DNA from: Sphingorhabdus sp. 109
Lineage (GTDB): Bacteria > Pseudomonadota > Alphaproteobacteria > Sphingomonadales > Sphingomonadaceae
Assembly (NCBI RefSeq): GCF_902506555.1
Contig: NZ_LR732707.1
Span: 1,765,138-1,829,137, forward strand
DNA length: 64,000 nt
Direction: 5' to 3'
Shown piece after piece: positions 43,702-62,677 of the stretch; within the stretch, counting starts at the first letter, position 1, and each line of letters begins with the position of its first letter. A program made the position numbers and the translations under genes. The notes beneath the pieces are model-generated. The model worked only from the letters and a program-made list of their open reading frames with translations, made no database searches and was not told where the DNA came from.

Positions 43702-44316
43702 ATGCGAAATTTTTCATCCCTAGCAGCCGCAAGTGTCGCAGCGATCGCGCTGGCCAGCCCGCTGGCCGCTGCCCAGAGAAACGGTGCCGTCGCTCAGGAT
43801 TTCAAACTCACCGACGTCAACGGACAGACGGTTCAACTGTCACAGTTCCGCGGCAAGACCGTGGTTCTGGAATGGCACAATCCCGGCTGCCCCTTTGTAG
43901 CCAAACATTATAATAGCGGCAATATGCAGGCGACCCAGAAAGCCGCCAGACAGCAGGGCGCGGTCTGGCTGACGATCAATAGCGGTGCGAAAGGCAAACA
44001 GGGTCATATGACCGGTGCCGAGGCGAAGGCGCTGATCGCCGAGCAAAAAATCATGGCGACCAATTATCTGTTCGACCCACGGGGCGTGGTCGGCAAGGCA
44101 TATGCCGCCAAAACCACCCCGCATATGTATATTATCAATGACAAGGGCATTCTGGTCTACCAGGGCGGGATCGATGACAAGCCAACGGCAAATGTTGCCG
44201 ATATCAAAACGGCCCGCAATCATGTGCTGGCGGCGCTGAAGGAAATCAAATCCGGCGACAAGGTCAGTGTCGCCCAGGCGCGGCCGTACGGCTGCTCGGT
44301 CAAATATGCATCCTGA
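43702..44316 (+). CDS. Secreted redoxin-like protein
   Basis: The 204-residue protein has a signal peptide (cleavage near PLAAAQR, residue 24) and a thioredoxin-like/AhpC-TSA fold. The active region reads WHNPGCPFVAKHY with one Cys, not CxxC; a second Cys lies near the C-terminus (PYGCSVKY). Such peroxiredoxin-like proteins often pair with ScsB/DsbD enzymes. A GGAG ribosome site precedes the ATG. It is likely to share a transcript with the DsbD-like gene. Confidence 0.82.
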   Translation: MRNFSSLAAASVAAIALASPLAAAQRNGAVAQDFKLTDVNGQTVQLSQFRGKTVVLEWHNPGCPFVAKHYNSGNMQATQKAARQQGAVWLTINSGAKGKQGHMTGAEAKALIAEQKIMATNYLFDPRGVVGKAYAAKTTPHMYIINDKGILVYQGGIDDKPTANVADIKTARNHVLAALKEIKSGDKVSVAQARPYGCSVKYAS

Positions 44317-44339
44317 CAGACCGGATAATGCAGGGCCGG

Positions 44340-44771
44340 CACGCAAACTTTACGCGCGCACCAGCCCTGCGCCCCAGGATCCGGGGATAGGACGACCGCC
44401 TCAAGCCCCCTGAGGCCGTTCGTCAACAGGTCCCCGGACCCGATAGCAATGCTTTTTCTGCCTGCATCATTCCCGAGGGTTGGGAGACAGACCCAGTACG
44501 CAACAAGGATCTGCCTCCCCCTTTGCTCCGACAGCGTGCGACCCTACTTAAAGGCACCGCCGGTCAAACTCTTCCCTTCCGCCAGCCAGCACGTGCCGGC
44601 GGATATGGAGAACTTATTGTTTCGATGCTGACCGCGATCCATTCCTGTTTGTCGGAATGCGATTGCCGGGTCAGTTCTTGTCTCTGCAATCTGTAATGGC
44701 CGTCCTCTAGCTAACCTGACCTGAACGGTCATGTAAACTATGGTAACAACTGGTAAACCATTGAAATTATA
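44340..44771 (-). ncRNA. Candidate structured RNA in the 718-base gap
   Basis: The gap 44317-45034, between two converging genes, has no credible protein gene. Read on the minus strand it holds five hairpins: 44674-44628, 44602-44579, 44519-44482, 44441-44377 and 44372-44356. Three of them contain four G-U pairs that would be A-C mismatches on the plus strand, so the RNA should come from the minus strand. A perfect TATAAT lies at 44771-44766 on that strand in an AT-rich stretch. The exact 5' and 3' ends are not known. I could not match tmRNA, RNase P, SRP or 6S signatures. Confidence 0.5.
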
Positions 44772-45034
44772 TTACATTTTTGCGTAATTTATGCACAGCG
44801 CCAGATCAGATATTCAGGACGAAATTGGCCATTTCGGGTGACGTTTGAAAAAGACCTTATTTTCCATATAGTTACATTTTATACTGATTCGACGCCTGAT
44901 TTCCGGCAAAAATATACAGATTGGGCATCTCCTGCCCGGATCGTAACCGCGACATGCGCCTGCCACGAATGTCAGCAGGACGGCGAGGACCCGCTTGCCG
45001 AAAATGTCGTCTTTTTGTCGACAGCATCCCTGCC

Positions 45035-47212
45035 CTACATCTTCCGCTGCGTCTTGCCATAGCCCATTTTCCGCGTGCCCGGTCGGCCTTCGGTGGAGCG
45101 GCCCTTGGGTTGCGCCACCTGCAGGTCGGCGGGTAGACCCAGCTCTTCCGCCTCGAGCTTGCGGATCTCGTCACGCAACCGGCCGGCTTCTTCGAATTCC
45201 AGATCCGCCGCTGCATCGCGCATCTGCTTCTCGAGGCTTTCAATATGGGCGCGCAGATTGTGGCCGACCAGAGGCTTGCTGTCGTCGTCGACCGCGCCGG
45301 TGACCATGTCCTTGGCCGTGGCATGGGCGACAATATCGCCGATATTCTTCTTGATCGACAGCGGGGTGATACCGTGTTCGAGATTATAGGCGACCTGTTT
45401 CTCGCGGCGGCGATCAGTCTCGCTGATCGCGCGCTCCATCGACCCGGTCATCCGGTCGGCATAGAGGATCACCCGGCCATCGACATTACGCGCGGCACGG
45501 CCGATGGTCTGGATCAGCGATGTCTCGCTGCGCAGGAAACCCTCCTTGTCGGCGTCCAGTATCGCGACCAATCCGCATTCCGGAATATCCAGCCCTTCGC
45601 GCAGCAGATTGATGCCGATCAGCACGTCATAGACGCCGAGCCGAAGATCGCGGATCAGTTCGATCCGCTCCAGCGTCTCGACATCGCTGTGCATATAGCG
45701 GACCTTGATTCCCGCCTCGTGCATGAATTCGGTCAGATCTTCGGCCATCCGCTTGGTCAGCGTGGTGATCAAAGTCCGATAACCCTGTTCGGCGACCTTG
45801 CGGCATTCGTTGATCACATCATCGACCTGGTCCTCGACCGGCCGGATCTCGACCGGCGGATCAATGAGCCCGGTGGGACGAATGACCTGTTCGCTGAACA
45901 CGCCGCCGGTCTGCTCCATTTCCCACGACCCCGGCGTTGCCGAGACGCTGACCGTCTGCGGTCGCATCGCGTCCCACTCGTTGAAGCGCAGCGGCCGGTT
46001 GTCAATACAACTGGGCAAGCGGAAGCCATATTCCGCGAGATTGATCTTGCGACGGTGATCGCCCTTCGACATGGCGCCGATTTGCGGCACCGTCTGGTGA
46101 CTCTCGTCGACGAACAGAAGCGCATTGTCCGGCAGATATTCGAACAGGGTCGGTGGCGGTTCGCCGGGCAGGCGCCCGGTCAGGAAGCGCGAATAATTTT
46201 CGATACCGGCGCAGCTGCCGGTGGCCGCGATCATCTCGAGATCGAAATTGGTTCTTTGCTCCAGCCGCTGATGCTCGATCAATTTGCCTTCCGCTTCCAG
46301 CTCCTTCAGCCGCTCGGCGAGCTCGAACTTGATCGCTTCCATCGCCTGTTTCATCGTCGGTCCCGGCGTGACATGGTGCGAATTGGCATAGACGCGCACC
46401 TTGTTCAGGCTCGCGCCCTTCTTGCCGGTCAGCGGATCAAATTCGACAATCTCTTCAATCTCGTCGCCGAAAAAGCTGATTCGCCAAGCCATGTCTTCAT
46501 AATGCGACGGGAAAATCTCGAGATTGTCGCCCCGCACCCGAAAGCTGCCACGGGCAAAAGCCATATCGTTGCGCTTGTACTGCAGCGCCACCAGCTTGCG
46601 GATGATATCCCGCTGGTCGACCGACTGTTCCTTCTTGAGATCAAAGACCATCGCCGAATAGGTCTCAACCGAGCCGATACCATAGAGGCAGGACACCGAC
46701 GCGACGATGATCACGTCATCGCGCTCGAGCAGAGAACGGGTGGCGCTGTGCCGCATCCGGTCAATCGCCTCGTTTACCGAGCTTTCCTTCTCGATATAGG
46801 TATCCGACCGCGCGACATAGGCTTCGGGCTGGTAATAGTCATAATAAGAGACAAAATATTCGACGGCATTTTCCGGAAAGAAATTCTTGAACTCGCCGTA
46901 CAGCTGCGCCGCCAAAATCTTGTTCGGCGCCAGAATCAGCGCCGGCCGCTGCAATTCTTCAATCACCTTGGCCATGGTGAAGGTCTTGCCCGACCCGGTG
47001 ACCCCGAGCAGCACCTGGTCGCGCTCCTCATCGCGCATGCCCTCTACCAGTTCCCGGATAGCCGTCGGCTGGTCGCCCGCCGGTTCAAAATCGCTGACCA
47101 GCTTGAAGCGTCTTCCGCCTTCCGATTTTTCCGGACGACTGGGCTTGTGCGGAACGAAATCATCCCCGGTTTCGGGTTCCGCGAGACCTCTTCTGATAAC
47201 CAATTCTGTCAT
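45035..47212 (-). CDS. uvrB: Excinuclease ABC subunit B
   Basis: The 725-residue helicase-like protein verifies damage in nucleotide excision repair. It shows Walker A GVTGSGKT, the beta-hairpin [10 protein letters not shown], the DESHQ box, and the C-terminal UVR motif ([17 protein letters not shown]) that binds UvrC. The ATG at 47212 is taken as start because MTELVIRRG leads directly into the conserved protein; the ribosome site is weak. A GTTC-N7-GCTC sequence, close to the alphaproteobacterial LexA box, lies 1-16 bases upstream. Confidence 0.95.
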
Positions 47213-47213
47213 A

Positions 47214-47228
47214 GAGCCGATATGGAAC
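47214..47228 (-). promoter_or_regulatory. Near-match to an alphaproteobacterial LexA box
   Basis: On the minus strand GTTC, 7 bases and GCTC read just before the uvrB start. The LexA consensus in alphaproteobacteria is GTTC-N7-GTTC, so one base differs. SOS control of uvrB is reasonable, but a single site with a mismatch is weak. Confidence 0.25.
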
Positions 47229-47350
47229 AAAAAGGGACCAATGTCATCCCCGTTGTGGAGTTTTTGGCCCTGCGGAGAGATAGAAAATTTACATCTGTTC
47301 CACATCGTCTTAAAGTGATCGACAACGCATAATATTTAGGGGAAATTCTT

Positions 47351-62460: not shown

Positions 62461-62571
62461 TGGGGTGGATCTCCTCGATAATCGTTTCGGTTCTTTCCAA
62501 CAAGATAGGTATCGTCAGGCCGATATGCGAATCAGATTTTCAGTGGGAGGTTCAGGCGACCGGAAACTGCC

Positions 62572-62602
62572 AAAAAAAAAGGCCAGTTCCGAAGAACTGG
62601 CC
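62572..62602 (-). terminator. Rho-independent terminator (minus strand)
   Basis: On the minus strand GGCCAGTTC (62602-62594) and GAACTGGCC (62589-62581) form a perfect 9-bp stem with a 4-base loop, followed by nine T (62580-62572). No protein gene lies upstream on that strand for at least 1 kb, so it ends a short RNA or acts as an attenuator ahead of the CDC48 gene. Confidence 0.9.
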
Positions 62603-62677
62603 TGAAAAGTTTTTAGGAGAGGATGCCTGAAAGGCCCATTCTGAATGCAGCAAACCATATTATTGTGCAAGTGCGAA
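62572..62677 (-). ncRNA. Candidate small RNA divergent from a GcvA-like gene
   Basis: A promoter at 62714-62684 and the terminator at 62572-62602 frame a transcript of about 105 bases. It has a small hairpin (GCCT-TTC-AGGC, 62632-62622), an exposed CCTCTCC that could pair with ribosome sites, and then the terminator. It faces away from a LysR gene of the GcvA type, as gcvB faces gcvA in enterics. It may instead be a leader for CDC48. Confidence 0.5.

Follow-up and report, generated by a model that had tools for sequence, protein, structure and literature searches.

Locus and features

The window, the whole 64-kb stretch of DNA analysed, belongs to a genome of 3.6 Mb (G000). The gap at 44317-45034 is bordered by an AhpC/TSA-redoxin gene on the plus strand (43702-44316) and by uvrB on the minus strand (45035-47305). 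Both genes point inward, as stated in the original prediction of a structured RNA between converging genes. A structured RNA was indeed supported in the span then proposed, 44340-44771, but the element extends beyond the start given there, the last hairpin being at 44330-44370. As shown in Table 1, a leader hairpin, hairpins D, A, B and C and a terminal hairpin follow one another on the minus strand.

Table 1. Features assigned to the minus-strand RNA locus (A5, alignment of the whole RNA; R1, model of the A+B core).
Feature	Position in window	Strand	Remarks
TATAAT	44766..44771	-	in 17/31 genomes, anywhere in the promoter region
Three GTTTAC/GTTAC direct repeats	44733..44758	-	10-nt period; probable operator
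Likely promoter	44706..44737	-	TTTACA (-35-like, 44737-44732) and TTAGCT/GCTAGA (-10-like, 44714-44706); predicted
62-aa ORF, probably spurious	44544..44732	-	last codons, SLTGGAFK, inside hairpin A
Structured RNA	44330..44703	-	~360-375 nt; from A5; 5' end predicted from a -10-like box at 44711-44706
Leader hairpin CUGACC...GGUCAG	44628..44674	-	helices 2 and 3 of A5
Hairpin D	44577..44604	-	9 pairs, 1 G-U; occupies the place of the ORF of relatives
Core module A+B	44473..44570	-	model R1, 104 bits here
Hairpin A	44522..44568	-	invariant AGGGUCGC (44538-44545 on the plus strand); basal UUUG/CAAA
Hairpin B	44482..44519 (MFE fold, 44480..44521)	-	15 pairs, 2 G-U; covarying stem, loop GUUGNGUA nearly constant
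Hairpin C	44377..44441 (MFE fold, 44375..44443)	-	25 pairs, 2 G-U; helices 9-11 of A5
Terminal hairpin	44330..44370	-	helices 12 and 13 of A5

The three hairpins described originally (D, B and C) were recovered, each with a lower minimum free energy (MFE) on the minus strand, and their MFE structures hold five minus-strand G-U pairs, one more than the four claimed. Folding of 44340-44765 gave a z of -4.07 on the minus strand (0 of 100 shuffles as low) and of -2.86 on the plus strand (2 of 100). Fold energy alone was not unique, since 3 of 318 sampled windows were equally low after the G+C fit, and the RNA is placed beyond chance because of its conservation and covariation. A helix between the 5' end and the right arm of hairpin D competes with that hairpin; the window's own copy of the helix has a mismatch.

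The Rfam search suggested at the outset was run, and none of the Rfam 15 families matched the gap at the gathering threshold; when E-values up to 10 were allowed, two matches to miRNA families appeared there, both far below their cut-offs. ARAGORN reported no tmRNA gene in the 64-kb window. RNase P and 6S RNA, whose signatures could not be matched originally, had their matches elsewhere: the single RNase P covariance-model match of the genome is at C2:868917-869273, and its single 6S-like match, at C2:586816-586990, scored 42.1 bits against a cut-off of 46.4. A suhB/mmgR sRNA (RF00519, 51.6 bits) is encoded on the minus strand at 62566-62642 of the window. These are structured bacterial RNAs too, but all of the genome's own matches to them lie outside the gap. 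No description of such an RNA was found among the listed matches in the open-licence PMC literature, as far as titles and the starts of abstracts go. As judged by comparative analysis, a structured RNA that matches no Rfam family lies on the minus strand of the gap.

In relatives, a methyltransferase-like gene (~265 codons) is located between uvrB and the RNA. Its protein matched 30 of the 31 compared loci, and the genome of the window (44772-45034) was the only one of them without the gene; the examined stretch of G017 gave no match to this protein either.

Conservation and covariation of the RNA

The genus here means Parasphingorhabdus/Sphingorhabdus, and the named relatives include Parasphingorhabdus marina DSM 22363, Sphingorhabdus sp. 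EL138 and uncultured Sphingomonadaceae. A DNA search covered 60 relatives, 31 of them within the genus; the locus was present in 30 of these 31, which together with G000 gave 31 genomes for comparison, and G017 yielded a chance-level match only. The A+B core was present in all 33 genus genomes examined, 31 of them by alignment and two (G017, 74.8 bits; L076, 101.1 bits) by matches to model R1, which had been built from other genomes. The noise of R1 comprised weak matches at E 0.15-0.57 and one wrong-strand match at E 0.0093. Only six of 396 genomes of the order were matched by R1, all of them genus members and G000 included; the filters of this search were stricter, so that diverged relatives outside the genus could escape it, and the non-matching genomes among those listed were outside the genus. 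The RNA was not found in the plasmid collection. Further matches of a 28-nt core motif occurred in G015, G003, G001 and G000; the one in G000 lies inside an ORF that we take to be phosphomannomutase-like and was read as chance.

Two alignments were used for most counts: A1, with the 3' domain of 30 genomes and 48 consensus pairs, and A5, with the whole RNA of 13 of the 14 genomes of the window's clade, which lack the ORF described below, and 90 pairs. L011 (G025), whose 3' part is missing, was left out of A1 and A5, and G017 and L076 out of A1, A2 and A5; L009 and L013-L020 were dropped as doubles of longer loci. Two-sided changes were counted at 18 pairs in A5, compared with 10.6 in shuffled alignments, and at 19 pairs in A1, compared with 10.2; slid versions of the structures, over which the counted ones are favoured by coming from the same alignments, gave at most 9 and 10 pairs, respectively. 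The number of A1 cells with two-sided changes was 93 versus 31.4. On four of five measures, including both pair counts, none of 500 shuffles reached the observed value; for the fifth, 'further pair types', the numbers of shuffles reaching it were 1 and 5 of 500. The covariation check proposed for the gaps of relatives gave two-sided compensatory changes above all 500 shuffles and all slid controls.

The consensus energy was lower on the minus than on the plus strand, -105.7 versus -57.1 for A5 and -65.4 versus -23.6 for A1. RNA distances from G000 to 12 clade members were 0.21-0.52, compared with 0.51-1.15 for redoxin dS and 0.55-0.84 for the upstream spacer. In close relatives the 95 nt preceding the RNA are well conserved; in 5 of the 12 clade members they are not (0.55-0.82). 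With compensatory changes, strand asymmetry, less divergence than at synonymous sites and a core shared by 33 of 33 genus genomes examined, the prediction of a selected minus-strand RNA was borne out.

Hairpin D corresponds to helix 4 of A5, with two-sided changes in 3 of 6 pairs and 83.3% of cells paired. The sequence of hairpin A hardly varies: its changes in A1 are one-sided only, and A2 has a single double change. It holds AGGGUCGC, which is unchanged in 31 of 31 genomes. The consensus structures of A1 and A2 leave this stretch unpaired and that of A5 pairs most of it, which would allow two registers. AGGGU is paired in the local fold of the window as well. AGGGUCGC thus forms no clean open loop, which counts against its proposed role as a contact site. 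TGCGACCCT, the complement of the invariant stretch, occurs four times in the window (24122, 39511, 40887 and 44537) versus 0.48 expected, 44537 being the RNA itself. Two of the three further window matches were inspected and yielded no target; both are antisense to genes, one of them near a gene start.

The four basal pairs of hairpin A are kept in 29-31 of 31 genomes, and 92.5% of the basal helix of B is paired, with two-sided changes. Such conserved pairing would suit a ligand-binding, riboswitch-like element in which UUUG/CAAA and CAAAGG/CCUUUG are alternative states. No minus-strand gene lies downstream of the core in the window, though, and the ORF of relatives is upstream of the core, so we regard a riboswitch as very unlikely.

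In G025 and G017, A+B is kept but neither hairpin C nor the terminal hairpin is present. This bears on the idea of a cis-acting 3' UTR or terminator complex that ends or stabilises the redoxin message or that of the former ORF. The terminal hairpin begins 14 nt past the redoxin stop and redoxin converges on it, and a U-run stands behind it in most ORF-bearing relatives. The window has no such U-run there, which counts against the main reading given in the Discussion. A cis role is, however, difficult to reconcile with a core that persists in G025 and G017, with a leader still conserved where the ORF is missing, and with pairing that is better on the minus strand than on the strand of redoxin. 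We consider it unlikely. A trans-acting regulator is favoured because the core persists even where the ORF and the last two hairpins (C and terminal) have disappeared.

Loop motif and possible doubling of the core

The motif GTWGNGTW was present at the leader, hairpin B and the terminal hairpin in 15 of the 16 ORF-bearing genomes scanned. In the window's clade it occurs in the B loop of 13 of 14 genomes and in the terminal hairpin of five, and the leader copy is missing. It is also missing from the B loop of G008, from the leader and B loop of G006, and from G017 altogether. Between hairpins B and C, G008 (L038) has four close copies of the motif in a row: GTTGAGTAG, GTAGAGTAG twice and GTTGCGTAG.

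Hairpin C and the terminal hairpin weakly matched the A+B model in 11 of 13 ORF-bearing loci (L071-L081), with 20-22 bits and E-values of 0.002-0.008, which are rough, a wrong-strand match in the same search having reached E 0.009. No second match was listed for the window. The weak second match, together with the loop GUUGNGUA common to B and the terminal hairpin, hints that the 3' domain might consist of two copies of one module (A-B and C-T); we treat this as a lead only.

Recurrence of GUUGNGUA in the leader, hairpin B and terminal hairpin could alternatively mean that the constant loops are recognised by an RNA-binding protein, for which the RNA would serve as a scaffold or sponge. A stem that covaries around a constant loop in B, the three sites in ORF-bearing genomes, the four copies in the variable region of G008 and the apparent doubling of the module all agree with such binding. 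The motif is general only in the B loop in the window's clade, however, with further gaps in G008, G006 and G017, and we know of no protein that binds it; a scaffold or sponge seems improbable to us.

Probable promoter region

The TTTAC of the last direct repeat was found in 30 of 31 genomes, and the TTAC repeat is triple in 22 and at least double in 26 of the 31. Exact TTAC-N6-TTAC-N6-TTAC occurs once in the own genome, at the RNA locus only. In G001, G003, G007, G014 and G029 the repeats are eroded, which counts against control of the RNA through them. Downstream of TATAAT by about 60 nt, after TTTAC, there is a CTA(A/G)AG-like box, presumably similar to the Caulobacter GCTANAWC element. The TATAAT itself is exactly where the original prediction had put it, but its suggested use as a -10 element is probably wrong and was set aside, since 14 of 31 genomes lack TATAAT.

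Direct repeats spaced by 10 bp fit an OmpR-type regulator (PMC9275681). The CenR motif given there is a TGA-N8-TGA repeat, which has the same 10-nt spacing as the repeat at the RNA locus and differs from its TTAC-N6 sequence; for that difference CenR is a less likely candidate as regulator of this promoter. A putative regulator bound at the GTTTAC repeats would control the RNA.

An ORF within the RNA locus in relatives

In 17 of the 33 genus genomes (16 of the 32 G-numbered ones and L076) an ORF was identified between the same leader and 3' domain. It has 124-134 codons in the 16 G-numbered genomes, for a protein of ~130 aa, and in most of them a purine-rich stretch, a candidate ribosome-binding site, precedes it. 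The stop codon is just upstream of hairpin A in 14 of 16 genomes, and the reading frame enters hairpin A in G021 and G022. ORF and RNA would share one transcript. The leader consensus fold was weak in the 16 ORF-bearing genomes (-5.2 versus -0.9 on the other strand), in a comparison that used a truncated leader for G006. The median dN/dS of the ORF was 0.19 (96 usable of 120 pairs), and 6385 of 12011 differences fell at third positions, so that the substitution pattern clearly indicates purifying selection on a coding sequence in the relatives.

The protein had no Pfam family match, and its best E-value in PHROGs was 0.046. Purine-nucleoside phosphorylase, suggested by NCBIfam for 8 of 13 members, was rejected, the first member scoring 15.4 bits against a cut-off of 302.6. 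An AF2 model of the protein was all-beta (pLDDT 72.8), and searches of PDB and BFVD gave no match to it at E <= 0.001. Relatives of the protein were sparse: none were found in phages or in viral contigs, and matches were limited to a second copy in G016, one in 385 genomes of the class and one in the plasmid collection (Nonomuraea). A weak match in G000 (C2:1525699, E 0.002) contains two internal stops and was read as chance. The second copy in G016 (L064, 1462-1812) is diverged and lies near an ORF that resembles a tyrosine integrase, named by eye; this neighbour hints at a possible mobile origin of the ORF. In Nonomuraea gerenzanensis (L084, 2830-4347) the relative is located directly upstream of a PCMT-type methyltransferase gene, at a spot where no gene is annotated in the collection's incomplete gene table.

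The window has a 62-aa ORF of its own (44732-44544), whose end, SLTGGAFK, resembles KFSLTGGASS of the G022 protein, as would be expected if the locus were still a messenger here. Among 14 other ORF-less genomes scanned, none has an ORF matching it in position and length; ORFs of 81 aa in G014 and 43 aa in G007 were found elsewhere in the region only. The start of the 62-aa ORF is, moreover, upstream of the likely 5' end of the RNA. Translation of this ORF appears most improbable.

Probable history of ORF loss

Two trees were calculated: one for uvrB with 37 rows, including 6 outgroup rows and leaving out G001, and one for redoxin with 31 rows, no outgroup and G017 left out. In the uvrB tree the 6 outgroup rows, some of them long, lie on one side of a branch (100/100), and the 13 ORF-less rows of the window's clade form one group (100/100). 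This group is sister to the ORF-bearing G006 (99/97), the ORF-bearing G022 being next (94/94), and the redoxin tree concurs on G006 (99/96). G008 was placed beside G021 in the uvrB tree with weak support (89/64). G017, which has lost other parts too and gave no match to the ORF protein, falls inside the ORF-bearing group.

By parsimony, the genus ancestor would have had the ORF, with losses in the window's clade and in G008; G017 does not have it either. Ancestral presence with losses is the shortest account, since otherwise a homologous ORF would have had to arrive several times independently at the same place. Parsimony gives at least two losses, and probably three; a locus exchanged between species could, however, look like a loss. 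According to the original prediction, a match of the gap to a decayed gene would refute a structured RNA. The gap does in part represent a decayed gene, the ORF of relatives being gone here, but the RNA persists and, on the distances above, remains constrained in its absence.

Discussion

We favour, at slightly better than an even chance, a minus-strand RNA with its own promoter block that was messenger and functional RNA at once in the ancestor, has lost its ORF here and acts in trans through its core. In the ancestor of the genus the locus would have been a messenger for a ~130-aa protein, encoded between leader and A/B core, in addition to a functional RNA. The window's clade would then have dropped the ORF and retained the RNA, now non-coding. 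Loss of the protein with the RNA kept suggests that the RNA itself does the work. Most likely it would act in trans, and hairpins A and B would form its functional core. The first candidate for a contact site, either a base-pairing seed or a protein target, would be AGGGUCGC, the invariant stretch in hairpin A; the sequence data are compatible with base pairing and with protein binding.

SgrS/SgrT of enteric bacteria offers the nearest precedent we can name, by likeness of history and design and not by membership. SgrS forms without sgrT are described in Yersinia and a changed start codon in E. coli O157:H7, with the RNA retained (PMC4021124). As proposed for the present locus, one RNA there combines an ORF with an RNA function, and some forms have lost the ORF. 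SgrT differs in having ~40 aa as against the 124-134 aa here, and the ORF here lies between leader and core. The candidate structured RNAs found by comparative genomics (for example PMC2864571) are likewise defined by conserved pairing, but the present RNA has been seen in a single genus, in which roughly every second genome has an ORF within it.

Taken further, the locus may represent a messenger turned non-coding RNA and kept for its core, present in 33 of 33 genomes, and this core, perhaps doubled, may be a new class of RNA regulator or an RNP scaffold limited to one genus; we give this a little less than an even chance. A route from messenger to non-coding RNA has been reported for mammalian lncRNAs (PMC5577775). 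Since ORF-bearing, ORF-less and truncated versions exist in one genus, RNA and protein functions could be separated without engineering. To our knowledge, the bacterial cases of a passage from messenger to non-coding RNA are mainly those in which a very small ORF, such as sgrT, has disappeared. If our reading is true, the locus would illustrate the origin of a non-coding RNA from a bacterial messenger.
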